Origin: Sphaerisporangium corydalis | Lineage (GTDB): Bacteria; Actinomycetota; Actinomycetes; Streptosporangiales; Streptosporangiaceae | Assembly: GCF_025506355.1 (NCBI RefSeq) | Contig: NZ_JANZYP010000003.1 | Coordinates: 124,001 to 188,000 of the forward strand | Length of the DNA stretch: 64,000 nt | Reading direction: 5' to 3' | Shown here: positions 1 through 15,194 of the stretch, one piece after another | Layout: the number at the start of each line of letters is the position of its first letter | Position numbering within the stretch: position 1 is the first letter of the stretch | The notes under the pieces: generated by a model | The model's database searches: none | Told to the model about the DNA's origin: nothing | Seen by the model: only the letters and a program-made list of their open reading frames with translations | Program-made: the position numbers and the translations under genes

Positions 1-371
1 GTCTCGAAGACGACCTCCTGGTCCTCGCCCTCCACGGGGTCGGCCGCCACCCTGGTGCCCGAGGGGACGACCGCGTCGGCGGGGCTCCCCTCGGCCAGGG
101 TGAACGTCAGCGGGACGCGCGCCGGGAGCGGCGGCAGCGGCCGGGTGCCGATCAGGTTCAGGAACGCCAGGTAGTCGCGGTCCGGGGCGCGGTTCACCCG
201 CTCGACGACCAGTTCGGCGAACCGGGCGAAGACCCCGATCAGCGCCTCGCCGGCGTCGGGCGGGCCGTCCTGCGCCGGCCGCCACCCGCTGTACCGGGTG
301 GCGAGCCTCTGGGTCTCGGCGATGAGGTCCGCGCGGTCGCGGGGGTCCACCGGCGGCGGCTGCGGCGTCAT
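1..371 (-). CDS. gpJ-like baseplate assembly protein of an eCIS (N-terminal part)
   Basis: Only about 123 N-terminal residues are inside the window; the gene continues past the left edge. The visible part begins MTPQPPPVDPRDRADLIA, has an Arg/Glu-rich helical segment (ELVVERVNRAPDRDYLAFLN), then PLPPLPARVPLTFTLAE and a beta segment with VPSGTRV. This layout is typical of the N terminus of gpJ/Afp11-type 'putative baseplate assembly' proteins, which form the wedges around the spike. The ATG overlaps the stop codon of the gp25-like gene by 4 bp (ATGA), so it is cotranscribed with the preceding structural genes. The family call rests on the fragment plus operon position. Confidence 0.8.
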   Translation of the reverse strand, partial: MTPQPPPVDPRDRADLIAETQRLATRYSGWRPAQDGPPDAGEALIGVFARFAELVVERVNRAPDRDYLAFLNLIGTRPLPPLPARVPLTFTLAEGSPADAVVPSGTRVAADPVEGEDQEVVFE

Positions 372-769
372 GCGAGGTAGAAGGGGTAGACCAGGTTGAA
401 TCGGCTGTTGCTCGATCGCACCTGGTAGTTGATCTCGATGAGCAGGCGGTTCGGGTCCGTGTCGTCCGCGACCGCGTAGACGTCCAGCACGTCGATGCGG
501 GGCTCCCACTCGACCAGGGCCTCGCGCACCGACTCGACGACGGCGCCCGCGGTGGCGGCGTCGCGCACGCCGAACACGTGGTCGTGGATCCGGCACCCGA
601 AGTCCGGGCGCATCACCCGCTCGCCCCGCGCGGTGCCGAGGATCGTCAGCATCGACTGGCGGATGGCCTCGTCTCCGGTCCCGGTCATCGCGATGCCGCC
701 GCCCTGGTCCAGCCGGACGGGGAAGGCCCACCCCCGGCCGAGGAATCCCTGGTCCGTCCCGGCGCTCAT
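368..769 (-). CDS. gp25/GPW-like baseplate protein of an eCIS
   Basis: A 133-residue protein, the usual length for the gp25/gpW lysozyme-like baseplate family (Afp9 in the Serratia antifeeding prophage). The family core is visible as IRQSMLTILGTARGERVMRP followed by DFGCRIHDHVFG, with a C-terminal beta segment ending in YQVRSSNSRFNLVYPFYLA. In contractile tails this protein nucleates sheath assembly at the baseplate. It sits between the PAAR-like tip gene and the gpJ-like gene with ATGA overlaps on both sides, the normal order in eCIS loci. Function is inferred from family and position. Confidence 0.88.
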   Translation of the reverse strand: MSAGTDQGFLGRGWAFPVRLDQGGGIAMTGTGDEAIRQSMLTILGTARGERVMRPDFGCRIHDHVFGVRDAATAGAVVESVREALVEWEPRIDVLDVYAVADDTDPNRLLIEINYQVRSSNSRFNLVYPFYLA

Positions 770-1167
770 CCGATCAGTACGGTGCCGGACGCGACCACCG
801 TCCCCGACGGGAGATCGGACGGATCGTTGCAGGTCAGGGCCTTGTCCCCGGTGCGCGCCGCGGGTTTTCCGTTGATCGTGACGGTCGCGCTGCCGCCCTG
901 GACGGTCGCGCGGTTCGACGGGGGGCGCTGGAACCCGGTGCCGGGGGCCGTCGGCATGTGCGCGGGCGTGTTGTCCGCGGTGCTGCCGGCCACCGCCGCC
1001 GGCCGGCCCATGATGAGCACGTCGGTGCTCAGCCCGCCGTTGAGCACACCGGTGAAGGCGTGCGGCAGCGGCGTGGGGGTCGGGTCCTTTCCCGGGGTCG
1101 GCACCATGACGACGTGGACGTCGGTGGCGACGACCCGGTCGCCCTGTTTGGCCGCCGGCTGGCCCAT
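766..1167 (-). CDS. PAAR-like spike-tip protein of an eCIS
   Basis: A 133-residue PAAR-domain protein. It starts MGQPAAKQGDRVVATD and has two later repeats of the PAAR type (VLIMGRPAAVAGS and VTINGKPAARTGDK), separated by a Pro/Gly-rich stretch, ending with SGTVLIG. PAAR proteins form the sharp, often metal-binding cone on the central spike (Afp10 position). An ATG further upstream in frame would make 259 residues, but that extension is Arg-rich shadow of the overlapping spike gene, so the internal ATG is chosen. It is preceded by GGAACCAGCGAGGAGACC, which contains a good ribosome-binding site. The 3' end overlaps the next start by 4 bp. Confidence 0.87.
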   Translation of the reverse strand: MGQPAAKQGDRVVATDVHVVMVPTPGKDPTPTPLPHAFTGVLNGGLSTDVLIMGRPAAVAGSTADNTPAHMPTAPGTGFQRPPSNRATVQGGSATVTINGKPAARTGDKALTCNDPSDLPSGTVVASGTVLIG

Positions 1168-1187
1168 CGTGGTCTCCTCGCTGGTTC

Positions 1188-1826
1188 CTAGTTGATGTTG
1201 ACGGTCTGGCCCTTGGCCGTCAGCCGGCCGTCGGCCTTCAGCGCGAGTTCGGTGGCGGCCTGGATCTTCACGTCCGTCTTGGAGGTGATCTCCACGGCCT
1301 GGCCGCTCAGCGTGAGCTTCCCGCTCGCGGAGGTGACGGCGACGTCGGCGTCCGCGCTGATCGTGATCGTGCCGTCCTTGGTGCTGATCACGATGCTGTT
1401 CTTCTCGCTCTTGTCCACGATCTCGATCCGCTCCTCGCCGTCGGTGTCGACCAGGCGGATCACGTGACCGTTGCGCGACCTGATCACGCGGACGTCGTTC
1501 TTGCCGTCGTCGTTGGTCTCGGGCGGGTGGTCCTCGCCGTTCCACAGCCCGCCGAGCACGTACGGGGACGCGGGGTCGCCGTAGGAGAAGGCCACCAGCA
1601 CCTCGTCGTCGACCTCGGGCAGGAAGTAGACGCCCCGGCCCGCGCCCGCCATGGGCGAGGCGACCCGCGCCCAGCCGCTCTCCAGCTCGCCGGCCATCCA
1701 GGGCAGCTTGAGCCGGACGCGCCCGAGCCCGTCGGGGTCCTTGTTGTTGGTCACGATCCCGGACGCCACCCCGTAGAACCGGCCGTGCGTCGCCGCGGGC
1801 CCGAACAGCTCGCCCAAGTTCGTCAT
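1188..1826 (-). CDS. gpV/VgrG-like spike protein of an eCIS
   Basis: A 212-residue phage baseplate assembly protein V-type spike (C-terminal half of Afp8/VgrG). The gp5 OB-fold is visible as FYGVASGIVTNNKDPDGLGR followed by VRLKLPWMAGELESGWARVA and the loop FLPEVDDEVLVAFSYGDP. The C-terminal part is a run of short beta repeats (IVISTKDGTITISADADVAV and so on), as in the triple-stranded beta-helix needle. It lies between the gpD-like hub gene, which it overlaps by 4 bp, and the PAAR gene, so the hub, spike and tip genes are consecutive. No C-terminal toxin extension is present. Confidence 0.9.
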   Translation of the reverse strand: MTNLGELFGPAATHGRFYGVASGIVTNNKDPDGLGRVRLKLPWMAGELESGWARVASPMAGAGRGVYFLPEVDDEVLVAFSYGDPASPYVLGGLWNGEDHPPETNDDGKNDVRVIRSRNGHVIRLVDTDGEERIEIVDKSEKNSIVISTKDGTITISADADVAVTSASGKLTLSGQAVEITSKTDVKIQAATELALKADGRLTAKGQTVNIN

Positions 1827-2878
1827 GCCGAGTTCCTCCTCATGTTCATGGAGGTCAGGTACCCCTCGCCCGGCGCGACCGTGTGCGTGACACAGGTGAG
1901 GTAGTAGGTGCCGCTGAAGGTCTCGCCCGCCCCCTGGACGTCGACGACCGTGCCGGCGCGCAGGCCGGGGCGCCCCGAGCAGACGGCCTCCCCCTGGACG
2001 AAGGACAGCGCCATCTCCTGGAACAGCCCGCGCGCCATGTCGTCGGCCCGCGCCTTGGACTCGACCGGCACGTCCACCTGGGCGGTCCCGGACGCGCCGA
2101 ACGCCCGCCGGGTGCGGCGCGGCCCCGGAGTACCGCCCCCCATCGCCGTCGCCTGCCCGCTGTCGGCCGTGGCCACGACCGCGCTCTTGGTCCCGGCGTC
2201 CCAGCCGCGCACGGTCACCTCGTCCACCTGGCTCAGCGAACGGAGCCTCGGGGTGAACTCGGTGAGGTCCTGGCCGACGTGCAGGGTGGCCACGGCCGGC
2301 CTGGTGTGCTGGGGCGGCCGGAAGTAGAGCACCTTGTCCCGTACGTACACCTCGTGCCCGATCAGGCCGGCGCGGGCGCGGAGGAACTCCAGGTCGGTCT
2401 GGTCGTGCTGGAGCACGTAGTCGAAGACGGGCCCGCTGTCGCTCACCTCGGCGCGCAGCCCGGCGCCGCGCGCGACCGTGCGCACGATCGCGCTGTCCTT
2501 CACCTTCGAGAACGTGCGGGTCTTGCGGCCCCGCGCCAGGCGGTGCCGCAGGTCGTACCCCCGGACGGTCAGCATGGGCGGCCGGTCGGGGCCGAACGCG
2601 GGCTCCAGGCTGGTGACCTCGCCGGTGATGACCTTCTCGGGGGCGCCGGCGGGGCCGAGCGCGATCTGCACCTCGGCGCCGAGCGCGAACAGCGGCGAGT
2701 CCGACCAGGTGACCTTGAGCCGGTCCTGGTCCCAGTTGTAGAGCACCACCGCGAACATGCTGAGCGCGCTGAGGTCGTCGACGACGGTGACCGACTCGAT
2801 GTCGATCCTGGCGTCCAGGGGCAGGCGGGCGCCGTCCACCCGGATGTCGATGCCGGGCACCATGCCGGAGGTCGTCAC
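1823..2878 (-). CDS. Phage late control gpD-like hub protein of an eCIS
   Basis: A 351-residue member of the phage late control D (gp27/Afp8 N-terminal) family, which forms the trimeric hub below the tube. Seen in the sequence: an N-terminal beta domain (GIDIRVDGARLPLDARIDIE), the characteristic segment VRGYDLRHRLARGRKTRTF, and the helix-rich part DYVLQHDQTDLEFLRARAGL that is typical of the family. Its end overlaps the start of the spike gene by 4 bp, so hub and spike are separate genes here, whereas in Afp8 and VgrG they are fused. Confidence 0.9.
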   Translation of the reverse strand: MTTSGMVPGIDIRVDGARLPLDARIDIESVTVVDDLSALSMFAVVLYNWDQDRLKVTWSDSPLFALGAEVQIALGPAGAPEKVITGEVTSLEPAFGPDRPPMLTVRGYDLRHRLARGRKTRTFSKVKDSAIVRTVARGAGLRAEVSDSGPVFDYVLQHDQTDLEFLRARAGLIGHEVYVRDKVLYFRPPQHTRPAVATLHVGQDLTEFTPRLRSLSQVDEVTVRGWDAGTKSAVVATADSGQATAMGGGTPGPRRTRRAFGASGTAQVDVPVESKARADDMARGLFQEMALSFVQGEAVCSGRPGLRAGTVVDVQGAGETFSGTYYLTCVTHTVAPGEGYLTSMNMRRNSA

Positions 2879-2888
2879 GGTCGCCCTC

Positions 2889-3674
2889 CTAGGAGTCCAG
2901 CTTGGGGATCGTCAGGACGGTTCCCGGCGGGAGGCGGCGCGGGTTGACGATGGCGTTCGCCCTGGCGATGTGCCGCCACAACCCCGGATCGCCGTACTCC
3001 TCCGCCGCGATGCTGTGCACGGTGTCGTGGCGCCGGACGGTCCGGGTCTTCACCACGTCGGCGGAGTTCATCTCGCGCGCCTTGTAGTGCGCCTTGGTCT
3101 GGAACTCCAGGAAGACGCACGACATGGTGGCGCGGACCGGCGTGCCGTCGGCGAGGAAGAGGGTGAAACGCTGGTCGAGCTGCGTCAGCACCCCCGTGAA
3201 GATGTACGCGGCCCCCCACACCAGGCGGCAGATGGGCGGCCGGTGGGTCTCCCTGTCGACCTCGGCGAGCTTGGCCACCTGGTCGGTGAGCCGCCGCACG
3301 TCGGTCGCGTCGCTCCCCTGGAAGGGGTTCTCCGGGAGCGCGAGGGACGCCGCGCGCTGGAGGGCGGACGCCTCCGACCTGGACTCGTAGGTGTCGAAGA
3401 AGAGCTCGATCGACAGCGTCTCGGCGCCCACGTACAGGAACTGCTGCTCGGTGTCGGCCCAGGTCCAGCCGCTGCTCTGGTGGGCCACCTTGTTCTGGTG
3501 CCAGCCGACCGAGCGCGACCGGCTGATCTCGTGCGGGTTGAACAGCGCCTCCACCGAGTCGCCGGTCCACTTGCCGCTCTTGTCGTAGTCGATGCGCAGC
3601 TTCTTCAGCCCGCCGCCGCCGGGGCCGAGACCGAGCACCTCGGAGGCCACTCCGGCCTTGTTGATCGCCATCAC
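2889..3674 (-). CDS. LysM-containing tube/baseplate adaptor of an eCIS
   Basis: A 261-residue protein of the CIS adaptor type (Afp7-like). The N-terminal domain contains LKKLRIDYDKSGKWTGDSVE and ALFNPHEISRSRSVGWHQNK, the pattern of the 'CIS tube/LysM' family. The C-terminal 55 residues are a LysM module (VRRHDTVHSIAAEEYGDPGL, then VNPRRLPPGTVLTIP). In related particles this protein connects inner tube to hub, and LysM serves assembly rather than wall binding. The start is one of two adjacent ATG codons and overlaps the stop of the disordered protein gene. Confidence 0.88.
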   Translation of the reverse strand: MMAINKAGVASEVLGLGPGGGGLKKLRIDYDKSGKWTGDSVEALFNPHEISRSRSVGWHQNKVAHQSSGWTWADTEQQFLYVGAETLSIELFFDTYESRSEASALQRAASLALPENPFQGSDATDVRRLTDQVAKLAEVDRETHRPPICRLVWGAAYIFTGVLTQLDQRFTLFLADGTPVRATMSCVFLEFQTKAHYKAREMNSADVVKTRTVRRHDTVHSIAAEEYGDPGLWRHIARANAIVNPRRLPPGTVLTIPKLDS

Positions 3675-5146
3675 CGCGTCCCCCGGCGCTCGGCCTCGAT
3701 GGCGAGGCGCCGGGCGAACCGGCGGTGCACGGTCTCCACGATGTGGTCGATGTCGACCGGCGCGGGGGACGCGGGACGCGCCTGGCCTCGCGCGGCGTGC
3801 GCGTCTCCGTCCAGGGGGACCGTGCGCGCCGGGACCGTGCGCGCGGGTTCCGGTCGTACGGGCGGGCCGGCGGCGGCTGCCCGTCCGTTCCGCCCGGGCG
3901 AGGGATCCGCCGGGGCGCGGGCCAGGAGCAGCGGCTCGCCGGTACGCAGCGGCGGGCGCGCCGGGGCCACCAGGGGGAGGCCTCCCGTGGCCGCCGCGTG
4001 GTCCGCGTGGTCTGGACGGGTGGGGCGCGCGATCGGCGGTGCCACGGAGCCGACAGCCGGCGCGCGGTGGTCCACGGGGGTGACCGGACGCCGGTCCACG
4101 GCCGCGCCGGAAGGCCGGTCCACGGACGGCTGGTTCAGGGACGGCCGGTCCAGGGGAGAGACGACCGGCGGCCCGCCGGCCCGGTCCCGTGAGGCCGTAC
4201 GGACGTGACCCGCGGCGCCGGCCTCCGGCGCGCGGGCGCGCGTACGGGGGAGGCCCGGCGACCCGGGGCGCGCGGTCCGCCCGGGGGAGGGGGCGGCGAG
4301 CTTCCGCTGCACGACCAGCGGGCCGCCCGCCGCCGGGCCAGGGGTCACCGGTCGGGCTGGGGCCGTCGAAGGGGACGCCGCGGTGCCCGGACCGGCCGCC
4401 GCGTGGCCGCCTGTCCCCGGATCCGCCGCCCGCCGCACGGCCGTCCCCGGCGGGGCCGACGAGGGGCCGATCGTGTCCGGTACCGGGCCGGTCGTGCCAA
4501 GGCCCGTCGTTCCAAGGCCGGTCGTACCAGGGCCGGTCGTACCAAGGCCCGTCGTACCAGGGCCGGTCGTCCCAGATCCGGCGAGCGGAAGCGGGGCGCC
4601 GGCCGGAACCCCGCCGGGCGCGGGACGGGTGAGCGGTGCCGCGCCGTGCGACCCCGGGCCGGAGAACGCGACCGGCTCACGCGAGCGCACACCGTCCGAG
4701 ACCCCGGACACCACAGGTACCCCGGACACGATCGGGACACCCGCCGCCGGAACCCCGCCCGGCACGGGCCCGCCGGCCCCCACGGGCATTCCGCCGGCCA
4801 CGGGCATTCCGGCGGTCACCGGCAGGCCGGCGGCCATCGGCATCTCGGCCGCCACCGCCACCCCGCCGGACACGGGGGAGACGGCAACCGGGACGCCGGC
4901 GGACGCCGGGCCATCGGCCGCCACCGGCTTCCCGTACACGACCGGCGTGGCCGCGCCATCGGACTCCGGCGCCGCGCGCCGCGCCGCCAGCTCGGCCAGG
5001 GGCAGATGGGGCATCATCCCGCGATGGCGGGCCAGGATCTCCCGCGCCGGAGCGGGGTCGAGCACACCGGGACGCAGGGCGCGCCGCTCCAGCCGGCGGA
5101 CCAGCGCGGGGTCCCAGGGGGGTTCGGCCAGGTGCTCAGCCCGCAT
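3671..5146 (-). CDS. Long low-complexity eCIS-associated protein, function unknown
   Basis: A 491-residue protein with conserved-looking ends and a disordered middle. The N-terminal about 60 residues are helical and charged (PPWDPALVRRLERRALRPGV and HRGMMPHLPLAELAARRA). The C terminus is another helix (DIDHIVETVHRRFARRLAIE). Between them lie about 400 residues of Pro, Gly, Ala, Val and Thr, including repeated PV-AG units and a run of five-residue GTTGP/GTTGL repeats encoded by 15-bp DNA repeats. Position between the second tube gene and the LysM adaptor is constant in a tightly overlapping operon, so it is probably a particle component. A flexible linker, length-determining or packaging role is possible, but none is shown. 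I do not recognise a characterised homologue. Confidence 0.75.
   Translation of the reverse strand: MRAEHLAEPPWDPALVRRLERRALRPGVLDPAPAREILARHRGMMPHLPLAELAARRAAPESDGAATPVVYGKPVAADGPASAGVPVAVSPVSGGVAVAAEMPMAAGLPVTAGMPVAGGMPVGAGGPVPGGVPAAGVPIVSGVPVVSGVSDGVRSREPVAFSGPGSHGAAPLTRPAPGGVPAGAPLPLAGSGTTGPGTTGLGTTGPGTTGLGTTGLGTTGPVPDTIGPSSAPPGTAVRRAADPGTGGHAAAGPGTAASPSTAPARPVTPGPAAGGPLVVQRKLAAPSPGRTARPGSPGLPRTRARAPEAGAAGHVRTASRDRAGGPPVVSPLDRPSLNQPSVDRPSGAAVDRRPVTPVDHRAPAVGSVAPPIARPTRPDHADHAAATGGLPLVAPARPPLRTGEPLLLARAPADPSPGRNGRAAAAGPPVRPEPARTVPARTVPLDGDAHAARGQARPASPAPVDIDHIVETVHRRFARRLAIEAERRGTR
4485..4574. repeat. Six tandem 15-bp repeats inside the low-complexity eCIS gene
   Basis: Six consecutive units of the form (a/g)ggcc(g/c)gtcgt-cca, differing at one to three bases each. 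On the minus strand they encode the alternating pentapeptides GTTGP and GTTGL. The register is exact, so unit number can change by slippage without breaking the reading frame. Confidence 0.9.
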
Positions 5147-5699
5147 TGCCGGCCTCCCGCGCCACCTGCACGGCGCCGTGCGCGAGGGCGGCCGCCTGCC
5201 CGAGCAGCGGCTTGGTCAGCCCCTCGTGCGCCAGCTCGATCGCCTCGAACGCGACCTGGTCGCCGCGCGCGTCGAAGGCGGGACCGGTCCAGCGCACCGG
5301 CAGGGCGTTGCGGAAGTTCCACCACATCACCGGTATCTGGCGCCCGTCGAGCAGCATGATGGTGCCGTTCTTGCGGTGGATCACGCCGCGCACGGCGTTG
5401 TAGTGCCAGTTCCACATCACGCTGTTCGCGGTGAGCCCCCGGGTCAGCACCAGGTTCGAGTGGCTCGCCACACTGGGCAGCCGGTGCACGAACCCGTTGA
5501 CGCCGCCCTCGCGGTAGTCCTCGGTCTCGACCCGGCTCTCCAGGCCGCTCACCTCGCTGCACCCGCCGAGCAGGAGCCCCTCGATCTCGACGGCGAAGTT
5601 GAACGCGGGGAAGGGCTCGAGCAGGGGGCGCGCCGGCGCCCAGTTCCCGGCCGCGGACGGCAGCCAGCTCAGGCCGAGCGGCACTCCCGTGGACGTCAT
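5136..5699 (-). CDS. Second inner-tube-like (gp19/Hcp-type) protein of an eCIS
   Basis: A 187-residue paralogue of the main tube protein encoded at 6237-6680. The family pattern FPAFNFAVEIEGLLLGGCSE, then SGLESRVETEDYREGG and the LVLTRGLTANSVMWNWHYNA segment match gp19/Afp5-type tube proteins. It differs from the main tube protein by an N-terminal extension of about 30 residues and a C-terminal Ala-rich helix after EAIELAHEGL. In eCIS such minor tube paralogues sit at the tube-baseplate junction. It overlaps the DUF6760 gene by 4 bp upstream and the low-complexity gene by 11 bp downstream. Confidence 0.88.
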   Translation of the reverse strand: MTSTGVPLGLSWLPSAAGNWAPARPLLEPFPAFNFAVEIEGLLLGGCSEVSGLESRVETEDYREGGVNGFVHRLPSVASHSNLVLTRGLTANSVMWNWHYNAVRGVIHRKNGTIMLLDGRQIPVMWWNFRNALPVRWTGPAFDARGDQVAFEAIELAHEGLTKPLLGQAAALAHGAVQVAREAGNAG

Positions 5700-5869
5700 G
5701 GCCGGTCACCTCCCTGTTCGTTGAGCCGCCCGTTGATGCGGGCCACCTCGGTCACCCACCGCTGCCGTTCGCGGTGGTCCAGCCGCATGATCTCCTGGTA
5801 GGCCCAGTGAAAGTGATAGGCCAAGTACGCCACCTCCTCGTGCAGCCGGTCCGCGGGGTAGCGTGTCAT
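5696..5869 (-). CDS. DUF6760-type small eCIS protein
   Basis: A 57-residue protein that begins MTRYPADRLHEEVAYLAYHF and continues with HWAYQEIMRLDHRERQRWVT and EVARINGRLNEQ. This is the compact helical pattern I associate with DUF6760, a small protein found between tube genes in actinobacterial and other eCIS operons. The ATG overlaps the stop of the preceding Cys-pair protein and the TGA overlaps the ATG of the second tube protein, so it is translationally coupled on both sides. Function unknown; a chaperone or assembly role would fit size and place. Confidence 0.8.
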   Translation of the reverse strand: MTRYPADRLHEEVAYLAYHFHWAYQEIMRLDHRERQRWVTEVARINGRLNEQGGDRP

Positions 5870-6246
5870 TCCCCCGGGCCGGCGGTCTCCACTTCGAACG
5901 CCCCCGCGCAGTGCGGGCAGTCGACCAGGATCCGGGTGTGCCCGGTCAGGTTGACCCGCTGGTAGAGGTCCTGGAGGTAGGCGAGGTCCGCCGAGTACAT
6001 GTTCTCGACGGCCGCGGTGTTGACGTGGTCGAGCGTCCCGAGCCGCGTGATCACCCGGGCCAGCAGGATGATGACCAGGTACCCGGGATTGGAGCGGACC
6101 CGGGGGTCCTTGATCGGCTCGATCTCGTCGAACGCCGTGGCCAGGCGCATCGTCCCCTCACGGTGCACGGTCCCGTCGGGGGTCACCAGCCCGCGCGGGA
6201 GGGTGAAGGGGAACTCGGTCCGGAGCGCGCCGTCGCCTAGCTCCAC
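5866..6246 (-). CDS. eCIS tail assembly protein with C-terminal CxxC
   Basis: About 126 residues from a GTG that overlaps the end of the tube gene. Readable core: TEFPFTLPRGLVTPDGTVHR, MRLATAFDEIEPIKDPRVRS, YLVIILLARVITRLGTLDHV, and a C terminus with TRILVDCPHCAGAFEVE. The family is usually annotated as a phage tail assembly protein and sits directly downstream of the main tube gene. The CPHC motif could bind zinc, though only one Cys pair is visible. A much longer in-frame ORF runs upstream, but it is the shadow of the tube and sheath genes; the GTG gives the overlap typical of this operon. Confidence 0.78.
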   Translation of the reverse strand: MELGDGALRTEFPFTLPRGLVTPDGTVHREGTMRLATAFDEIEPIKDPRVRSNPGYLVIILLARVITRLGTLDHVNTAAVENMYSADLAYLQDLYQRVNLTGHTRILVDCPHCAGAFEVETAGPGE

Positions 6247-6680
6247 TTGTCGACCTCGATCCTCTCGTAGGCGAGGGTGACCTGCTCGACGGCGATCTCG
6301 TCGGAGGCGGCGGACAGGCTCGGCCCCGTCCACGACTTCGGCCAGCACGCGAAGACGTTCCACGTGATCTTGGCGTTGCCCGTGTGGTCCAGCAGGGTGA
6401 TCGAGATGTCGTGCCGCTCGACCGACCCCTTCGCGGCCTTGTCCCGCCACTCCCACAGCTTGCTGTCGAAGGTCAGCCCACGGCTGAGCGTGATGTCGCC
6501 GTAGGTGTTCAGGCCGGGGATCTTCCGCACGCTGAGGCTGCGGTCCGTCCCTTCCCGGTACTCGCTGGCGTTCTGGCTGCTCTCCAGCCCCGAGCACTCG
6601 CGGAAGCCCGCGCGCGTGATGCCGTCCAGCTCCACCGCGAAGTTGTAGCCGGCATACGGATCCACCCTGTTCGCCATCAT
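6237..6680 (-). CDS. Main inner-tube protein (gp19/Hcp-type) of an eCIS
   Basis: A 147-residue tube protein, the standard length. It reads VDPYAGYNFAVELDGITRAG, then ECSGLESSQNASEYREGTDR, ITLSRGLTFDSKLWEWRDKA and a C-terminal EQVTLAYERIEVDKWS. These are the hallmarks of the gp19/Afp1 family that stacks as hexamers within the sheath. Start is one of two adjacent ATG codons preceded by AATGGAGGTCA, a strong ribosome-binding site consistent with high expression. It lies 30 bp after the second sheath gene. Confidence 0.92.
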   Translation of the reverse strand: MMANRVDPYAGYNFAVELDGITRAGFRECSGLESSQNASEYREGTDRSLSVRKIPGLNTYGDITLSRGLTFDSKLWEWRDKAAKGSVERHDISITLLDHTGNAKITWNVFACWPKSWTGPSLSAASDEIAVEQVTLAYERIEVDKWS

Positions 6681-6710
6681 TGACCTCCATTACGGGTTGT
6701 CGGGGGGGTG

Positions 6711-7865
6711 TCACACCGCGTTGATCGTCACTCCGCTGGCTCCCTGGATCACGCGGACGACGATGTACTCGGCGGGCGCGCTGGGCGCCACGCCGATCTC
6801 CGTGACGACCATCCCGGCGTCGACGACCGGGCCCGGGTTGGTCTCGCTGTCGCACTTGACGAAGAACGCCTCCTCCGCCGTCCGGCCCTTCAGGGCGCCC
6901 CGCTGGAACAACCCGTCCAGGTAGGCGGTCAGCTCGCGCATGATCCGCACCCAGAGCCTGATGTCGTTGGGCTCGAAGACCAGGCCGCGCATGAACCGCT
7001 CGACCCACCGGTGCACGTTCGCCACCACGCGCCGCGCGCTCACGTCGCGCCACGCGGGGTCGTCGCTGAGGGTCCGCGCGCCCCACACCCGGATGCCCCG
7101 GCCCGGCAGGGCGCGCACGCAGTTCACCGCCCGCGCGTACAGCTCGCCCGCCTGCTCGGCGGTCAGGTCGCTCCGCAGGTCGAGCGCGCCCTCCACGACC
7201 TCGTTGGCGGGCGCCTTGTGCACGCCCACCCGCCGGTCGCCCCGCGAGTAGACGCCGGCGATGTGGCCGCACGGCGGTACGTGCCTCGGCCGCCCGTCGC
7301 GGTCGCCCACCCGCAGCCACGGGTGGTACAGCGCCCCGTAGGAGCCGGCGGCGCCGTCGGTGGCGTTGAGCGCGTCACGCTGGCCGGCGGCGATCCCGGG
7401 GTCGTCGGTGGCCAGGCAGTCCAGGATGGCGAACCGGTCCCCCCGGTCCCGGCAGTGGCGCAGCAGCGCCCGCTGCGGGCCGGTCACGGTGTCGATCGCC
7501 GAGCCGGGCCGCCAGGCGGCGGCGAGGTCGGGCGCGCAGACCAGGTCGACGTCGTCCACCTCCTCCAGGGCCGCCAGGGCGCGTTCCAGTTCGTCCGGCG
7601 ACGGCGCCGCCGGGTCGGTGTCCGCGAGGCGCACGACGTAGCAGGCCACGCCGTCGTTCTCGAAGAAGCCGCGCACCGCGTCGTGCAGGAACCCCTCCGC
7701 GGGCCCGCCGAACACCGCCTCGAACTCCGGCCACAGCGTGAGCCGGCGCGGGGTGCCGGGGCCGGTGGGCGCCCGGCCGACGAAGGCGGGCACCCCCGTC
7801 AGGAAGTTCGGCGGCGCCGCGGGCAGGACGTTGACCGGGTAGACGCCGGGCGTCAGACCCGTCAC
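6711..7865 (-). CDS. Contractile sheath protein, second copy
   Basis: About 384 residues. The N terminus TGLTPGVYPVNVLPAAPPNF and the C-terminal sheath domain (EEAFFVKCDSETNP, VVTEIGVAPSAPAEYIVVRV) match phage tail sheath proteins. It shares the inner block HVPPCGHIAGVYSRGDRRVG and VHKAPANEV with the neighbouring sheath, so both derive from one ancestor. I take the GTG that overlaps the stop of the first sheath gene (GTGA); an ATG 18 bp upstream is also in frame. Two different sheath proteins in one particle is normal for Afp/PVC-type eCIS, where minor sheaths form the ends. Confidence 0.88.
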   Translation of the reverse strand: MTGLTPGVYPVNVLPAAPPNFLTGVPAFVGRAPTGPGTPRRLTLWPEFEAVFGGPAEGFLHDAVRGFFENDGVACYVVRLADTDPAAPSPDELERALAALEEVDDVDLVCAPDLAAAWRPGSAIDTVTGPQRALLRHCRDRGDRFAILDCLATDDPGIAAGQRDALNATDGAAGSYGALYHPWLRVGDRDGRPRHVPPCGHIAGVYSRGDRRVGVHKAPANEVVEGALDLRSDLTAEQAGELYARAVNCVRALPGRGIRVWGARTLSDDPAWRDVSARRVVANVHRWVERFMRGLVFEPNDIRLWVRIMRELTAYLDGLFQRGALKGRTAEEAFFVKCDSETNPGPVVDAGMVVTEIGVAPSAPAEYIVVRVIQGASGVTINAV

Positions 7866-9106
7866 CGCGCCGCGCCGTCCCACTGGCTCAGGCGGAAGAC
7901 GACGAACTCGGCCGGCTTCACCAGCGCCACGCCGACCTCGGTGACCACCTGGCCGAGGTCACGCACCTCCCGCGGGTTGGTGGTCTCGTCGCACACCACG
8001 TAGAACGCCTGCTCGGGGGTGGCGCCGAGCAGGGCGCCCGAGGCCCACACCGTGGTGAGGAACGCGCTGACGTTCCGCCTGATCTTCGACCACAGCTCGG
8101 GCGCGTTGGGCTCGAAGACCACCCACTGGGTGCCCTGGTCGATCGACTCGCGCAGGTAGTTGAACAGCCGCCGGGAGCTGATGTACCGCCATTCGGAGTG
8201 GTCGGCGCCGGCCAGCGTGCGCGCCCCCCAGATCGTCACGTTGGCGTCGAAGCGGCGGATCACGTTGATGTCGTCGGGGTTGAGCCCCGCCTGGGCCTGC
8301 TTGCCGACCGGCGTCTCCACGCCGAGCGCGCCCCGGATGACCTCGTTGGCGGGGGCCTTGTGCACGCCCCGCTCGGCGTCGACCCTGGCGTACACCCCGG
8401 CGATGTGCCCGCTGGGCGGCACGTACAGCGTGCCGCCCGCGGCGTCCTTGGCGCCCACGTCGATCCACGGGTAGTAGATCGCCCCGTAGGAGCTGTCACG
8501 GACGCCGCCCCGGATCTCGGCCGTGATCGGGGTGGCGGTCCTGCGGCCGTCCAGGATCGCGAACCGATCCCGCAGGTACTCGTTCTCGCAGTGGTCCAGC
8601 AGCGCCGACTGGACCGCGTCGCTGGTGGCGCCGGGGACGGCGACCAGGGCGATCTCGTCGATGACCGCGAAGGCGTCGAGCGCGCCGGTCACCGTCTCGT
8701 CCGCCGGGAGGAGGTCGGCCGGGCCCTTGGCGCCCTGCTTGCCGTCGCCGGACCCCGGCTCCAGCCGCGTCACCCAGCAGCGCCCGCCACCGTTGTTGAA
8801 GAACCCGTACACCGCCTGGGCGAGCGTCCGGTTCCCCGGCTTGACGCCGTCGCCGAACAGGGTTTTGAAACGTTCCCATCCGTCGACGAGCTGCGGTACC
8901 CCGGCGGGCGCCAGGGGGTAGAAGTCGGCCGGCTCGGCCGTCTTACCGCCGGCCTTCAGGCCGGTGCGGCCGGGGATGAGGGGCATCTGGACGTCGTTGG
9001 CGACCGCCCCGATGAACCCCGCGGTGCTGGTCCCGACCCCGGCGATCGGTTTGATCGCCGACGGGACCTCCTCGACGTACACGCCCGGCGTGAAGTACTG
9101 GGGCAT
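7862..9106 (-). CDS. Contractile sheath protein, first copy
   Basis: A 414-residue tail sheath protein with the family N terminus MPQYFTPGVYVEEVPSAIKP, the conserved middle YVPPSGHIAGVYARVDAERG with VHKAPANEV, and the C-terminal domain EQAFYVVCDETTNPREVRDL followed by VVTEVGVALVKPAEFVVFRL. The outer sheath contracts to drive the tube through a target membrane. It is the second gene of the operon. The start is preceded by CGAAGGGAACGCCAGCG on the coding strand, and the length fits the family. Confidence 0.92.
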   Translation of the reverse strand: MPQYFTPGVYVEEVPSAIKPIAGVGTSTAGFIGAVANDVQMPLIPGRTGLKAGGKTAEPADFYPLAPAGVPQLVDGWERFKTLFGDGVKPGNRTLAQAVYGFFNNGGGRCWVTRLEPGSGDGKQGAKGPADLLPADETVTGALDAFAVIDEIALVAVPGATSDAVQSALLDHCENEYLRDRFAILDGRRTATPITAEIRGGVRDSSYGAIYYPWIDVGAKDAAGGTLYVPPSGHIAGVYARVDAERGVHKAPANEVIRGALGVETPVGKQAQAGLNPDDINVIRRFDANVTIWGARTLAGADHSEWRYISSRRLFNYLRESIDQGTQWVVFEPNAPELWSKIRRNVSAFLTTVWASGALLGATPEQAFYVVCDETTNPREVRDLGQVVTEVGVALVKPAEFVVFRLSQWDGAAR

Positions 9107-9127: not shown

Positions 9128-9739
9128 TCATGACGGCTGGTTCTCGCCGGCCGGGCGGTCGAGGCCCTGGCCGATCCTGATGACCTTCTCCGTCACCGCG
9201 GGCCCGGCCTCGACCGGCTCGGCGACGTCCACGCTGAGGGTGACCTTGTAGTGCAGGGTGGCCTTGGGCCTGCCGCCCATGGCCTGCCAGAACTCGCCGA
9301 GGCTCTGCAGCTGGTTGTCCGCGATGATCTTCGTGGGCATCGGCGGCTCCTGCCCGGCCAGCTCGCCGCGCAGGTAGGTGGCCGGGATCGTCCGGTGCCG
9401 GATCAGCACTCGGAGCACCTCGCCGAGCAGCCGGTGCTCGTCCTCAGCCGGGGTGGGCGTGCTCGCGCTCGGCCACGCGGTGATGAGGTACGAGCAGTCG
9501 ACCCGGGCCGGCGGGTGGGTGCGCAGCGTCACCCCGTCCTCCCGCAGCTCCGCGCGCCAGTGGTTGTCGCGCAGGTCGAAGTTCTCCCGGACGTCGTACA
9601 GGAAGAAGGCGACGGCCGGCAGGGTCACGCTGGACGGCGGGAACTGGTCGTCGGGTCCGGCGAAGCTGATGGCGACGTTGCGCAGCGACAGCTCGGCCTT
9701 GACGAGCGCGGCGAGCGTCGCGTCCAGGTCCTGGAACAC
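9128..9739 (-). CDS. DUF4255 (Pvc16 N-terminal type) tail terminator protein of an eCIS
   Basis: About 203 residues starting at a GTG with GGGAGGGGG five bases upstream. Core: VFQDLDATLAALVKAELSLR, ISFAGPDDQFPPSSVTLPAV, FLYDVRENFDLRDNHWRAEL and the C-terminal VTLSVDVAEPVEAG. This is the DUF4255/Pvc16_N pattern seen in proteins that cap and terminate eCIS tubes. A 661-residue ORF extends upstream in the same frame, but it runs through the divergent promoter and antisense to the cargo gene and is not real. This is the first gene of the leftward structural operon, so its upstream region controls the particle. Confidence 0.87.
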   Translation of the reverse strand: MFQDLDATLAALVKAELSLRNVAISFAGPDDQFPPSSVTLPAVAFFLYDVRENFDLRDNHWRAELREDGVTLRTHPPARVDCSYLITAWPSASTPTPAEDEHRLLGEVLRVLIRHRTIPATYLRGELAGQEPPMPTKIIADNQLQSLGEFWQAMGGRPKATLHYKVTLSVDVAEPVEAGPAVTEKVIRIGQGLDRPAGENQPS

Positions 9740-9964: not shown

Positions 9965-11224
9965 ATGAGTCGTCAGTTCGGCACGGCCGGACCCGTCACG
10001 GGGGGACGGGCGCCCGCCGCCGGTCACGGCAGGCCGAAGACCGGCGCGGCCCGCGCGGTCGCCGCCCCCGCGCCCCCCGGGGCCAGGGGGCCGGTCCAGA
10101 GGGTGGCCACGTTCACGAACGGGGCGGTGAGCACCGAGTGGCGTTCGGTGCGGATGGCCCTGGCGAAGCACAAGGTGGAGATGCCGAAGGACTGGATCGG
10201 CACCGATGACCGGGTCAGACAGGACACGCTGGAGACGGAGCTGGCGGCGATCAAGTCCTCGCCGACGCAGCACGGAACGTTCGACCTCGGCAAGGAGGAG
10301 GACGTCCGGAGACTGGCCGGCCTCCTCATCGGGCGGCCGTCCGGGACAGGCCCGCAGAATCCGGTCGGGCAGCCGCCCCCGACGGGCCCGCAGAACGCTC
10401 CGCCGCCCGGGCCCCCGCCGCAGCAGGTGACCGCCGTCCCCTCGGCCCCGCCGGCCGCCGGGCACTTCTCCGCCGAATACCTGAACCTCGGCAACCGGGT
10501 CGAGGTGTCCACCACCCTCAGGGCATGGGCGGCGTACGCGCAGAGCCGGTTGGACGGCCTGAGAAAGACCCACCTGGCGATGGAACCCGAGGTGCAGGAC
10601 CGGCGGCAGAAGCGTGCGTACTATCCGGGCGACCCGAACACCGGCGCCGACGCCGAGAAGTTCCGCAAGGAGTACAAGCAGGCGAGGACGCGCGCCGTTC
10701 ACATGGCGGGCGCCCTGGGCGAGGCGGAGACGGTGGACCAGGCGGTCCGTCGGCCGAGCACCAAGTCCACGGTCATCGGCGTGCTGCGCGACCCCGCCCG
10801 GAAGATCCAGAGCGTGGTCGAGTTGTCGATCATGAAGAAGTACGTGTACCTGTCGAACCTGGCCGCCAATCCCGAGAACATCGACTCCGCGAATCCCGTC
10901 AGGAGGGTCGGCGAGGCGTCTCTGGTGTTCACCGTGCTCCAGAGCCAGAAGGAACAGAAGGATCTCGTCAAGCTCTGGGCGCTCAACAACAAGGTGAAGG
11001 CGATCTACGATCATCTCGGTTTCCGGGTGGAAGGCGTGCCCGGTCCCCACCCGAAAGGCGACAAGACCATCGACGGCACGGGTACGCGCGTCCCGGCGAA
11101 AAGCGCGTGGCACGACAGGACGGCGGGAATGATGACCCTCGACCAGCAGGGGGCGGCGGGCCTCCTCGGCAGGGGAAGGGCCCTGCTCGACGTCCTTCCG
11201 GACGAGCTCCGCGGCGTCACATGA
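9965..11224 (+). CDS. Putative eCIS cargo with C-terminal GNAT-like domain, no DUF4157
   Basis: A 419-residue protein starting at an ATG preceded by GGAGGGGCCACATC. Residues 1-18 (MSRQFGTAGPVTGGRAPA) match the start of the next gene. After a Pro/Ala linker comes VQRVATFTNG and an unrecognised helical domain (about 47-122), a Pro/Gln linker, a second helical part, and a C-terminal domain sharing high identity with the neighbour. That domain has the GNAT pattern: YVYLSNLAANPENI (strand beta4), RRVGEA at 313-318 fitting Q/R-x-x-G-x-G/A, and LWALNNKVKAIYDHLGF (beta5, helix, YxxLGF). I infer an acetyltransferase-fold effector loaded into the injection particle. No substrate can be named, and secretion is not shown by sequence. 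Confidence 0.72.
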   Translation: MSRQFGTAGPVTGGRAPAAGHGRPKTGAARAVAAPAPPGARGPVQRVATFTNGAVSTEWRSVRMALAKHKVEMPKDWIGTDDRVRQDTLETELAAIKSSPTQHGTFDLGKEEDVRRLAGLLIGRPSGTGPQNPVGQPPPTGPQNAPPPGPPPQQVTAVPSAPPAAGHFSAEYLNLGNRVEVSTTLRAWAAYAQSRLDGLRKTHLAMEPEVQDRRQKRAYYPGDPNTGADAEKFRKEYKQARTRAVHMAGALGEAETVDQAVRRPSTKSTVIGVLRDPARKIQSVVELSIMKKYVYLSNLAANPENIDSANPVRRVGEASLVFTVLQSQKEQKDLVKLWALNNKVKAIYDHLGFRVEGVPGPHPKGDKTIDGTGTRVPAKSAWHDRTAGMMTLDQQGAAGLLGRGRALLDVLPDELRGVT

Positions 11225-11357
11225 CCGGCCTGGCAGGGCGTGGGCGCCGACGCCGGGCGGCGCCGCAGGACCGCCCCACCGGAAGGATCCCGTTCGCTAC
11301 GGGGACACGACGACCAGGCGACCGCGGATGTGGTGGCATCCGCATTCGGAGGGCCAC

Positions 11358-13007
11358 ATGACGACTCGCCAGTTCGACACGACCGGCCGCACGACCGCTG
11401 GCCGCGCGCCCGCGCCCGTCCAGGCGTCCGCCGCCCCGTGCGGGCACGTCCAGCGGAAGGCCGAGATCCGCGGCGGCGGGGCGACGGCCGCCGGGCCGGC
11501 GGGCGGGCGGCTGGAGGGGGACTCGCGGCGGGAGATCGAGGCGGCCCGGGGCGGCGGGCGGCGGTTGTCCCCAGGGGTGGCCGAGGCGATGGGCCGGCGA
11601 CTGGGGGCCGACCTCGGCCGGGTGCGGGTGCACACCGACGATCGGGCCGACCGGCTCGCGGAGTCGCTGAACGCGCAGGCGTTCACCACGGGCACCGACG
11701 TGTTCTTCCGCCGTGGCGGGTACGCGCCGTCGACCTCGGGGGGGCGGCGGCTGCTGGCGCACGAGCTGACCCATGTGGTGCAGCAGTCGCACGGGCACGT
11801 GGGGCCGCACGGGTCGGTGGGCGCGGCCGGCGACGCCCACGAGAGGCAGGCCGACCGGGTGGCCGGCGGGCTCGCCGCCCCGGAGCCGTCGCGCGCCGCC
11901 GCCTCGTCCGGCGGCGGAGGGCCGGTCCAGCGGACGGCGACGTTCGTGAACGGGACGAAATTGGAGGACTGGCGCGCCGCACGCCTGGCCCTGAAGAAGT
12001 TCGCGGTGCAGATGCCTCCCGACTGGGCCGATCCCAAAATGGGCATCAACGGCGACAAGCTCAAAGCGCGCATGTCCGAGATCGTGAACGATCCGTTCGA
12101 CCACGGGACGTTCGACCTCGGGAAGGAGGAGGACGTCAAGCGGCTGGCCGCGCTCCTGGTCCAGCAGCCGCAGGGGGCGGCCCTGGGCAACGTCCAGCAG
12201 CCGCTACCGCAGCAACAACCGGTCCCCGTCCCCGCACAGGGCCCAGGAGCCGGGCGCTTCTCCGCCGAATATCTGAACAGCTCGAACAAGGCCGAGGTGC
12301 GAAAGGCGCTGCGGGAATGGGTGCAGTACGCCGAGGCCCGGGTCGATCTCATGCGGAAGACCTACATGAACATGTCCGGTGAGGTGTCGAAGCGGCGCAG
12401 GGAGGGGGCCTACTACCCGGACGACGCGGACCCCGGCAAGTACGCGGACGCCGTGGACTTCCGCAAGACGTACAAGGATGCGAAGAACCGCAGCATTCAC
12501 ATGTCCGGCGCGCTGAACGAGGCCAAATCGGTGCAGAAAGCGCTCGGCGGATCCCAGCCCATCGGGGTCCTGCGCGACCCCACCGGGAAGATCCAGAGCG
12601 TCGTCGAGCTGATGATCCTCACCGACAAGGTCTACCTCTCCAACCTGGCGGCCAACCCCGAGAACATCGACTCCGCGAGCCCGGTCAGGAAGGTCGGCGA
12701 GGCCTCGCTGGTGTTCACGGTGCTGCACGCCAAGAAGGAGAACAAGAACGCCATCGAGCTCTGGGCGCTCAACAACAAGGTGAAGGCGATCTACGACCAC
12801 CTCGGTTTCCGGGTGGACGACGGGGGCGTGCTCGTCCCCCACACCCGCGGGATGAAGACGGCCGGCCCGCCGCCGCGTGGGCCCGTGAAGGACAGATGGC
12901 ACGCCCAGGGCTCGATGGTCCTCGACCAGACGGGGGCGGCGGGCCTCCTGGGCAGGGGACGGGCGCTGCTCGACGTCCTCCCGGCCGAACTCCGCAACGT
13001 CCAGTGA
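11358..13007 (+). CDS. Putative eCIS cargo: DUF4157 metallopeptidase-like domain plus GNAT-like domain
   Basis: 549 residues from the ATG with GGAGGGCCAC upstream; an ATG 30 bp earlier lacks a good site. Residues about 68-146 are DUF4157: LSPGVAEAMGRRLGADLGRV, VHTDDRADRLAESLNAQAFT and the zinc motif HELTH at 135-139, with HERQAD near 161. Such domains are a hallmark of proteins encoded in eCIS loci and are often found on toxins. PVQRTATFVNG then opens the same region as in the upstream paralogue. The C-terminal GNAT signatures are VYLSNLAANPENI, RKVGEA (444-449) and IELWALNNKVKAIYDHLGF (up to 484). The final GAAGLLGRGRALLDVLP tail is shared by both paralogues. Likely a delivered effector in which DUF4157 serves loading or self-cleavage; that role is inferred. 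Confidence 0.78.
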   Translation: MTTRQFDTTGRTTAGRAPAPVQASAAPCGHVQRKAEIRGGGATAAGPAGGRLEGDSRREIEAARGGGRRLSPGVAEAMGRRLGADLGRVRVHTDDRADRLAESLNAQAFTTGTDVFFRRGGYAPSTSGGRRLLAHELTHVVQQSHGHVGPHGSVGAAGDAHERQADRVAGGLAAPEPSRAAASSGGGGPVQRTATFVNGTKLEDWRAARLALKKFAVQMPPDWADPKMGINGDKLKARMSEIVNDPFDHGTFDLGKEEDVKRLAALLVQQPQGAALGNVQQPLPQQQPVPVPAQGPGAGRFSAEYLNSSNKAEVRKALREWVQYAEARVDLMRKTYMNMSGEVSKRRREGAYYPDDADPGKYADAVDFRKTYKDAKNRSIHMSGALNEAKSVQKALGGSQPIGVLRDPTGKIQSVVELMILTDKVYLSNLAANPENIDSASPVRKVGEASLVFTVLHAKKENKNAIELWALNNKVKAIYDHLGFRVDDGGVLVPHTRGMKTAGPPPRGPVKDRWHAQGSMVLDQTGAAGLLGRGRALLDVLPAELRNVQ

Positions 13008-13068
13008 CCCCTGCCGGCGTCCGGTGACCCCTGCGGGCGTCCAGTCACCCCTGCCGGCGTCCGGTGAG
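12998..13068. repeat. Tandem 20-bp repeat at the 3' end of the DUF4157 cargo gene
   Basis: Three and a half copies of CGTCCAGTGACCCCTGCCGG with one or two changes per copy. The first copy contains the last codons and TGA of the cargo gene, so the duplication began at the stop codon. It fills nearly all of the space before the convergent ATPase gene. Confidence 0.9.
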
Positions 13069-13073
13069 CCGGG

Positions 13074-15194
13074 TCAGCGGGCGCCGGTGAACCGTTCCGC
13101 CGGGAGGATCTTGCCCATCTTCTGGTACTCGCCGGCGACGGCCCGGTGGAGGTGGGCCATGGTGATCGTCCCTCCGTCGGCGGCGGCGAGGAAGGCGGCG
13201 GTCAGGGCGATGTTGCGGATGTTGCCGCCGGGCAGGTCCACCTCCCGGGCGAGCCGTTCCAGGTCCAGGCCGGGGTCCAGCGGCGCCTCCCGCGGCCAGA
13301 CCCGGGTCCAGATCCGCAGCCGGTCCTCGGTGCCGGGCACGGGGAAGTCGACGGTGAAGTGCAGCCGGCGGACGAACGCGTCGTCCATGTTCTTGCTCAG
13401 GTTCGTGGCCAGGACGACCACGCCCTCGTGCTCCTCCATCTTCTGCAGCAGGTAGCTCGTCTCCAAGTTGGCGTAGCGGTCGTGGGCGTCGCGCACCTGG
13501 GTGCGCTTGCCGAACAGCGCGTCGGCCTCGTCGAAGAACAGGACGGCCTCGCCCCGCTCGGCCTCCTCGAAGACGCGGGAGAGGTTCTTCTCGGTCTCGC
13601 CGATGTACTTGCTCACCATGGTCGACAGGTCGATCTTGTACAGGTCGAGGCCCAGCGCGCCGGCCAGCACACCGGCGGCCATCGTCTTGCCCGTCCCCGG
13701 CGGCCCGGTGAACAGGATGCCGATCCCGCCGCCGCCCGCCACCTTGTCCCCGAACCCCCAGGTCTCGTGGACCGTGGACCGGTGCCGGATGCGGTCGTGG
13801 ATCTCCTGGAGCTGACGCGTGCGGTCGGCGGGCAGCACGATGTCGTCCCAGGTGTGGCGCGTGGGGACCCGCCGCGCCAGGGCCGCGAGCCCGCCCGAGG
13901 ACCTGCGGCGGCACGCGGCCGCCAGGTCGTCCCCGGTCACCACGGGCGCGTCCGGCGTGCGCGCGTACGCCAGCCCGCGCGCGGCCGCCGCCGCCCCGGC
14001 GATCTGGCCGCCGGTCAGCCGGAACCGGCCGGACAGCGCGGCCAGGTCGAAACCGGTGGCGTCCACGCCCATCCCGCCGAGCGCCGCGCGCCACAGCCCC
14101 AGGCGTTCCGCCGTCCCGGGGACCGGGAACTCCACGCCGGCGACCGTCAGGCCGTCCGGGACGTCCACGGCCTCCCACGCCGCCGTCCCGGCCAGGAAGG
14201 CCGGCCAGGGCGACGCCTGGAGCATCGCCAGCAGCGGGGCGGCCCGCCGTGGCCGGTCGGTGAGCAGGGCGTCGGCGTTCTCCCAGTACATGATCGCGCC
14301 CAGCAGCCGCGCCTCGCGGTCGGCGAGCGCGACCAGCGACGTGAAGTCCTCCTCCGGGAGGCCGGCCAGCGACTCGGCGTCCACCACCAGCAGGTCGGCG
14401 CCCCAGGCGTGGCTCAGCGCGGCGGCGGCCGTGCGCTTCCCGGTGCCGGCGGGACCGTGGAAGTGCAGGACCAGATCGCAGTCGAGGTGCCCGGCGAGGC
14501 CCGCCAGCCGGGACCGGAGGCCGGCGGGGAGGACCAGCCGGTCCAGCGGCGTGACGGGTTCCACCAGCCGGGCGTACGGGCGCAGGAGCGGTTCGGGCTC
14601 GTCGTCCTCCAGCAGGAACCGGGCGATCCGCGGATCCAGGGCCACGCTGCGCGTGAGGAGGGGCCCGGCGGGCCGGGAGGCGTCGCCGGTGAGGGTGACC
14701 AGCCGGTGCCGGAGCAGCGGCGCGCCGGCGCCGAACCTCGCGCGCGCGGCGATCCTCGTCGGCAGGTCCGCGTACAGCAGGTCCAGGACCAGCTCGACCG
14801 TGGGAGTGTGAAGCGTGGCGTCGTCCTGGAGGTGGGCGTACAGGCGCTCGTACCGCCGGTCGATCTCGGGGGCCAGGCAGATGACGATGACGTCCACGTC
14901 GAACCGGGTCAGCCCGAACAGCCGGGCCAGGACGACCAGCCGGAGGAACGCGCCCTGGTCCAGCCCGGCGGCGGAGCGCTCGCCGATCTCGCCCGCCAGC
15001 CGCTCCGCCTCCGCTAGCCCGGCGTCCGTCTCCTCACTCCGGGCCCCGGCGTCCGTCTCCTCGGCCCGGGCCCCGGCGTCCTCGGGTTCGGCGTCCGCGC
15101 GCTCCATGAGCAGGCGGAGCAGCAGGTCGAGGCGGGCCAGCTCGGCCAGCACGTGCTGGAGCGTGGTCTGGTACGCCTTGGTGTCATCTTCCAT
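13074..15194 (-). CDS. Tandem AAA ATPase of the eCIS locus
   Basis: 706 residues with two AAA modules. The first has a P-loop GPAGTGKRT (about 250) but a weak Walker B (IMYWENADALL). The second is canonical: GPPGTGKT (about 498), Walker B AVLFFDEADALFG (about 553), sensor 1 VVVLATNLSKN and an arginine-finger-type MDDAFVRRLHF. An N-terminal region carries a duplicated EETDAGAR-type acidic repeat. A conserved AAA ATPase of this kind (Afp15-like) accompanies most eCIS and is thought to act in assembly or recycling. It converges on the cargo genes and is followed leftward only by the 20-bp repeats. Confidence 0.88.
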   Translation of the reverse strand: MEDDTKAYQTTLQHVLAELARLDLLLRLLMERADAEPEDAGARAEETDAGARSEETDAGLAEAERLAGEIGERSAAGLDQGAFLRLVVLARLFGLTRFDVDVIVICLAPEIDRRYERLYAHLQDDATLHTPTVELVLDLLYADLPTRIAARARFGAGAPLLRHRLVTLTGDASRPAGPLLTRSVALDPRIARFLLEDDEPEPLLRPYARLVEPVTPLDRLVLPAGLRSRLAGLAGHLDCDLVLHFHGPAGTGKRTAAAALSHAWGADLLVVDAESLAGLPEEDFTSLVALADREARLLGAIMYWENADALLTDRPRRAAPLLAMLQASPWPAFLAGTAAWEAVDVPDGLTVAGVEFPVPGTAERLGLWRAALGGMGVDATGFDLAALSGRFRLTGGQIAGAAAAARGLAYARTPDAPVVTGDDLAAACRRRSSGGLAALARRVPTRHTWDDIVLPADRTRQLQEIHDRIRHRSTVHETWGFGDKVAGGGGIGILFTGPPGTGKTMAAGVLAGALGLDLYKIDLSTMVSKYIGETEKNLSRVFEEAERGEAVLFFDEADALFGKRTQVRDAHDRYANLETSYLLQKMEEHEGVVVLATNLSKNMDDAFVRRLHFTVDFPVPGTEDRLRIWTRVWPREAPLDPGLDLERLAREVDLPGGNIRNIALTAAFLAAADGGTITMAHLHRAVAGEYQKMGKILPAERFTGAR

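Follow-up and report, generated by a model that had tools for sequence, protein, structure and literature searches.

The window, by which we mean the whole stretch of 64,000 nucleotides that was analysed, has a GC content of 71.7% and comes from a genome assembly of 9.48 Mb in 162 contigs. It carries an eCIS operon in which two genes, P0001 and P0002, form a head-to-tail pair between the ATPase and Pvc16 genes. The features of the operon and of the pair are the following.

368..9106, reverse strand: eCIS structural genes (gp25, spike OB, GPD hub, CIS_tube, two tubes, two sheaths)
3671-5146, reverse strand: ORF of 491 aa among the structural genes, no Pfam match
9128..9682, reverse strand: Pvc16-type cap gene (Pvc16_N, PF14065, E 3e-29), divergent from P0002; start position provisional
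9965..11224, forward strand: P0002, 419 aa, core-less twin and cargo candidate, no Pfam match
10466..11221, forward strand: C-terminal domain of P0002 (residues 168-419)
11358..13007, forward strand: P0001, 549 aa, cargo candidate with the eCIS core (DUF4157) and a C-terminal region of the P0002 type
11565..11795, forward strand: eCIS core domain PF13699, P0001 residues 70-146, with HELTH at 135-139
12258..13004, forward strand: C-terminal domain of P0001 (residues 301-549), GNAT-like
12687..12704, forward strand: putative acetyl-CoA loop RKVGEA, P0001 residues 444-449, read from the sequence
13074..15194, reverse strand: eCIS AAA ATPase, Pvc15 type by position (PF00004, E 3e-33; PF22977, E 4.9e-53), convergent with P0001
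15254-16375, reverse strand: BTAD regulator near the operon, next after the ATPase
18497-20797, forward strand: LuxR-type (GerE) regulator, beyond the BTAD gene
L021:10613-13195, reverse strand: fibre-like gene, 860 aa, with an endosialidase-type chaperone (Peptidase_S74), at the far end of the eCIS operon

The two gp19 tube and two sheath genes lie at 5136-5699, 6237-6680, 6711-7883 and 7862-9106 on the reverse strand. The operon continues in L021 with Baseplate_J, Tail_P2_I and the fibre-like gene with Peptidase_S74; there, at L021:13847-14821, lies a second operon ORF without a Pfam match, the other being the one at 3671-5146 of the window. No PAAR or tape-measure gene was seen in the operon by Pfam. 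BTAD and the LuxR-type GerE are both regulator domains that passages of PMC8213781 name for eCIS operons. The Pfam matches on both sides of the pair bear out its earlier placement beside an eCIS structural operon. Both genes lie within ten genes of this operon, and the core domain is found in P0001 itself and, for P0002, in its neighbour P0001. The third-position GC is 0.91 in the P0002 gene and 0.93 in the P0001 gene. P0001 and the ATPase gene converge, and the space between their 3' ends is filled by a 20-bp direct repeat of about 3.5 copies with 86% matches (12998-13067).

The core domain of P0001 is matched by PF13699 with an E-value of 2.7e-30, and it is the only PF13699 match in its own genome among the matches listed (best 16 candidates per genome). 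For P0002, Pfam gave no match at E up to 1, and an eCIS core is lacking. P0001 runs from an N-terminal segment through the core, a conserved region of about 80 residues and a proline-rich linker to the C-terminal domain; in P0002 the N-terminal segment is followed by PVQR, the conserved region of about 80 residues, the proline-rich linker and the C-terminal GNAT-like domain. Over the last ~360 residues the two proteins are 59% identical, in agreement with the description of the pair as paralogs in the earlier note, and in the GNAT-like stretch they are 73% identical. The C-terminal stretch is also the more strongly conserved at the level of codons: dN/dS (NG86) is 0.35/0.507 across the region common to both proteins and, of the windows tried, lowest at 0.126/0.362 in the 60-codon window starting at NPEN, which is the loop stretch.

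The similarity extends to the N-termini, whose alignment score of 60 was reached by 10 of 5000 shuffles, and to the 150 nt of DNA around both starts, where a score of 60 was reached by none of 2000 shuffles and by none of 1212 other 150-nt stretches. Because the 60 nt before the two starts are weakly similar on their own (79 of 2000 shuffles reach the score), a common ribosome-binding region of the two genes is suggested at most. The simplest history of the pair would be a gene duplication, after which one copy either lost or acquired the core segment.

We surveyed 60 eCIS-core ORFs from 45 related genomes, which represent 60 of the 63 non-own matches (three were omitted). With the best 16 candidates per genome scored, 48 of 338 genomes, own included, have an eCIS-core match. 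Of the 60 core loci, 26 have one or more of ten structural genes within the fetched stretch, and in 12 of these 26 operon-linked loci, counted by eye, the core gene sits between the ATPase and the sheath, tube or Pvc16 genes. These slot loci (L139, L140, L142, L146, L147, L148, L150, L152, L155, L160, L161 and L163) span four genera, with four of the 12 from one genus, and in two of them (L160 and L161) the orientation is reversed as in P0001 and P0002. Since the remaining 14 core genes sit elsewhere, five of them between the CIS_tube and tube genes, the ATPase-side position is one slot of several.

A twin pair with and without the core is unusual. Among the relatives, 53 of the 60 core proteins were testable, with a tail of at least 60 aa, and for none of these 53 did we find a second copy of the tail within the fetched stretch; the positive control of the same test finds the P0001/P0002 pair at 55% identity (E 4.6e-105). 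This rarity would be expected if P0002, rather than being cargo, were a gene copy in decay or served P0001 as a protective or adaptor protein, and so would its lack of an eCIS core and the dN/dS of about 1 at the start of the common region (0.662/0.596). We nevertheless consider such a role unlikely, as the frame of P0002 is intact, every C-terminal motif is retained, the best conserved part is the C-terminal stretch and the N-terminus resembles that of P0001.

The short motif VQR is found at residues 31 and 190 of P0001 and at residue 44 of P0002. In the relatives, many of which are close to one another, it occurs upstream of the core in 16 of 60 proteins and downstream in 25 of 60, where 0.16 per protein is expected by composition. 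Where a relative has an upstream copy, its distance to the core match is exactly 15-16 residues in 15 of the 16 cases; in P0001 the distance is 39 residues. It is possible that VQR near the eCIS core marks a docking or processing site.

In passages of PMC11297309 and PMC8213781, DUF4157 is presented as a signature domain of eCIS toxins, found in many of them and possibly acting as a chaperone in cis or in trans. Given the eCIS core in one of the two proteins, the cargo slot and the similar N-termini, P0001 is a likely eCIS cargo candidate, and we infer the same for P0002; the cargo role proposed in the earlier note gains support from these three features. P0001 resembles the DUF4157 toxins described in parts of the same two papers in having an N-terminal core, a linker and a distinct C-terminal domain, encoded by a gene within the operon, but it differs from them by the adjacent second copy without the core. 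For the Photorhabdus virulence cassettes, a passage of PMC5512222 mentions a metallopeptidase domain by which other effector domains are set free.

An arrangement comparable to our pair is described in passages of PMC13277306 for S. lividans, where two particle-associated proteins, of which one has DUF4157 and the other lacks it, are encoded by a reverse-oriented tandem pair immediately upstream of the structural genes. The protein that bears DUF4157 co-elutes there with the tube initiator as well as with the N-terminal part of the cargo. This pair, Sle1/Sle2, shares with ours the reverse tandem orientation beside the structural genes and the DUF4157 domain in one member. The two pairs are set apart by that paper's description of Sle1 as a coiled-coil cargo resembling a tape measure and of Sle2 as a small protein with DUF4157, whereas P0001 and P0002 are paralogs and P0001 has 549 aa, so that they do not form a small adaptor with an unrelated cargo.

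The nature of the C-terminal domain is more difficult to settle. P0001 contains VYLSNLAANPENI at 425-437, RKVGEA at 444-449 and LWALNNKVKAIYDHLGF at 468-484, and P0002 has RRVGEA from residue 313; RKVGEA and RRVGEA both fit the acetyl-CoA loop Q/R-x-x-G-x-G/A. GNAT acetyltransferases have a Tyr in helix 4 before LGF, and in their chemistry this Tyr serves as acid. A Tyr precedes LGF in both paralogs (AIYDHLGF, Y479 of P0001). Three GNAT landmarks are found in order in both proteins, and the motifs quoted in the earlier note are all present there in that order. We described them by a strict pattern, [RQK]xxGx[GA], 26-42 residues, [YF]xxxGF, which was written after seeing the sequence, so that its figures are indicative: besides P0001 and P0002 it is present in 11 of 27 ordinary GNATs of the same genome and in none of the 60 eCIS-core proteins of relatives, and it arises by chance in 24 of 5000 shuffles of the whole P0001 and in none of 5000 shuffles of its 100-aa stretch.

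We also compared the pair with a profile of the GNATs of its own genome, for which 27 of 30 loci were kept (two were cut by contig ends and one was a duplicate). The pair scores 23.5, above all 300 column shuffles (maximum 18.7), and 13.6 when reversed; with other settings it scores 19.3, above all 168 segments of other proteins (maximum 16.6). True GNATs scored by leave-one-out reach 67-110, against 19-23 for the pair, with 16-26 columns aligned and a probability of 10% or less, and the global alignment of the pair scores 12.7. An hmmsearch with the same profile gives its best match on the eCIS core (1.7 bits) and -3.0 bits on the Y..LGF stretch. The loop carries Glu448 at a position that is usually hydrophobic and that is Glu in none of the 27 own GNATs, as judged by eye.

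Profile A3 (97 positions), searched against 177,635 PDB sequences at E up to 10, gave a single match, 4e0a, which at E 1.5 is not significant. The alignment is in register from the loop glycine to the LGF position, and the matched segment of 4e0a is Pfam Acetyltransf_1 (E 1.6e-5). Neither the single-sequence searches nor profile A4 found a GNAT in PDB. The HMM search for GNAT that the earlier note had proposed turned out negative, with no Pfam GNAT match at E up to 10, a search in which the HMMER filters remove most matches above 0.1, and none in NCBIfam. Other matches of the pair in NCBIfam and PHROG were weak and were rejected as chance, and PADLOC gave no match.

An AlphaFold2 model of P0001 297-549 was built from a two-sequence alignment and has a mean pLDDT of 58 and a pTM of 0.58, with pLDDT below 50 at 441-529. 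Its confident part (block pLDDT 52-89, model residue 11 to 140) is predicted as strand, helix, helix and three strands, a beta-alpha-alpha-beta-beta-beta order that is GNAT-like up to beta4. After it, in blocks with means of about 50 or less, come a short helix, a pair of strands, another helix, two more strands that are short, and finally the C-terminal helix. From the cofactor loop through beta5 and helix 4 the pLDDT stays below 50, and a strand is predicted at the expected place of helix 3. The two predicted helices before beta2 have 38 and 33 residues. In the full-length model (pLDDT 39) a low-confidence helix occupies 443-461, where the 297-549 model has a strand. Inside the P0001 gene, a 27-bp repeat of two copies with 77% matches (12414-12467) lies in the part that codes for the segment separating the two long helices and for the beginning of the second one.

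Fold searches with the 297-549 model, the step that the earlier note had proposed after structure prediction, gave no match at E 0.001. Of the best 50 of 331 PDB rows, four are titled acetyltransferase (2zw4, 3s6f, 4zm6 and 7kwx), at E 0.78 or worse, as is one of the best 50 viral rows; we give these titles no weight. Coiled coils and helical hairpins make up most of the top VIA-align rows; no GNAT appears by title among the best 50, which excludes nothing. The GNAT-like domain of the earlier note is thus sustained in part, by its ordered motifs, the lowest dN/dS at this place, the 4e0a match and the order of elements up to beta4, and fails to find backing in the curated models, in the structure from the loop onward and in a significant fold match. 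We regard a GNAT identity of the C-terminal domain as plausible but unproven from sequence and model.

This leaves considerable room, though well short of an even chance, for the pair being cargo with another C-terminal fold, a long helical hairpin plus a small beta domain that bears GNAT motifs by accident. Such a domain would be in line with the dominance of helical hairpins and coiled coils in the fold searches, the very weak profile scores, the lack of a GNAT HMM match and the end of the model's confident part before the loop, but it would leave to coincidence that three ordered landmarks occur in both paralogs and that the sole PDB match of profile A3 is a GNAT aligned in register.

Apart from the pair itself, our genome searches, whose samples overlap, yielded no accepted homologs of the C-terminal region. 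Profile A2 matched in 2 of 394 genomes of the class, own included (best 4 candidates per genome scored), and the second match is a chance one to a low-complexity ORF of 81 aa; in 101 genomes of one genus it gave two matches, both rejected. Profile A3 matched in 1 of 341 genomes of the family, which is the own genome, and at E up to 1 in 28 of 396 genomes of the phylum, namely the own genome and 27 weak matches with a best E-value of 0.051. Two weak A3 matches, L069 and L072, aligned at the Y..LGF-type segment and were read as ordinary GNATs. Scans of genomic and viral contigs with short peptide patterns and tblastn of plasmids and phages returned nothing, and distant relatives could escape both.

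The reading we prefer, to which we give slightly less than an even chance, is that the pair are duplicated eCIS cargo genes and that the C-terminal domain they encode is a highly diverged transferase of the GNAT fold, one that would acetylate some macromolecule of the target. The steps that we infer, from loading and delivery to the fold, the acetylation and its target, could be as follows. The N-terminal segment, together with the core in P0001, would bind the baseplate or the tube end, and the cargo would travel inside the tube and be delivered by contraction. The C-terminal domain would then bind acetyl-CoA via R444-A449, and the target macromolecule would be acetylated with Y479 as acid. 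P0002 might be loaded with P0001 through the common region, or by its own N-terminal segment alone. It is rather improbable, in our view, that the two form a self-adapting twin, in which P0001 would dock on the tube initiator by its core and carry P0002 via the common region, so that one particle would deliver two divergent-GNAT enzymes.

We see only a slim chance that a GNAT-like enzyme acts in the producer itself, where it could for example act on particle proteins or take part in the producer's own programmed death, without delivery to other cells. Contractile injection systems of Streptomyces are reported to act on the producer (PMC10066040, PMC12237407, PMC11126660), and the genome analysed here is probably that of a related bacterium; the fibre-like gene of the operon with its endosialidase-type chaperone domain suits surface binding instead, and the cargo core of P0001 also speaks against this possibility.

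The pair resembles GNAT acetyltransferases (PF00583, PF13508) in the loop motif, the Tyr before LGF and the order of the first predicted elements, but differs in the lack of a curated-model match, the long helices and the Glu in the loop, and we class neither P0001 nor P0002 as a GNAT member. The idea of a delivered GNAT has a precedent in passages of PMC5512222, which describe GNAT domains in proteins deployed by phages and conjugative elements. These polyvalent proteins are proposed to be deployed with a phage or conjugation machine, and their GNAT domains likely modify proteins. Compared by description, they differ from our pair in their phage capsid or T4SS context, in belonging to a RimI-like clade and in that DUF4157 does not appear in passages of that text.

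We found no eCIS cargo acetyltransferase in the literature by titles, starts of abstracts and some passages, a scope that excludes supplements, preprints and most subscription papers, so the statement of the earlier note that no eCIS effector of this architecture has been described holds within it. None is described in passages of PMC12402492, PMC5512222, PMC2717986 and PMC12608077. The word 'acetyltransferase' does not occur in the main text of PMC11297309, PMC8213781, PMC13277306 or PMC12210884, nor 'GNAT' in that of the first two, which deal with the DUF4157 toxins, and 'acetyl' has no occurrence in PMC12961389 and PMC11495950. Judged by its sequence, P0001 would be a DUF4157 eCIS cargo with new traits, namely an orphan, possibly GNAT-like payload and a core-minus twin.

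What the eCIS core domain does has yet to be settled, according to passages of PMC11297309 and PMC8213781. A twin that differs by this core and has similar ends would make leader, core and payload separable in one natural system. An acetyltransferase payload, if true, would be an activity new to eCIS cargo within the parts of the literature searched, and a self-adapting twin, if true, would be a natural experiment on the job of the eCIS core.
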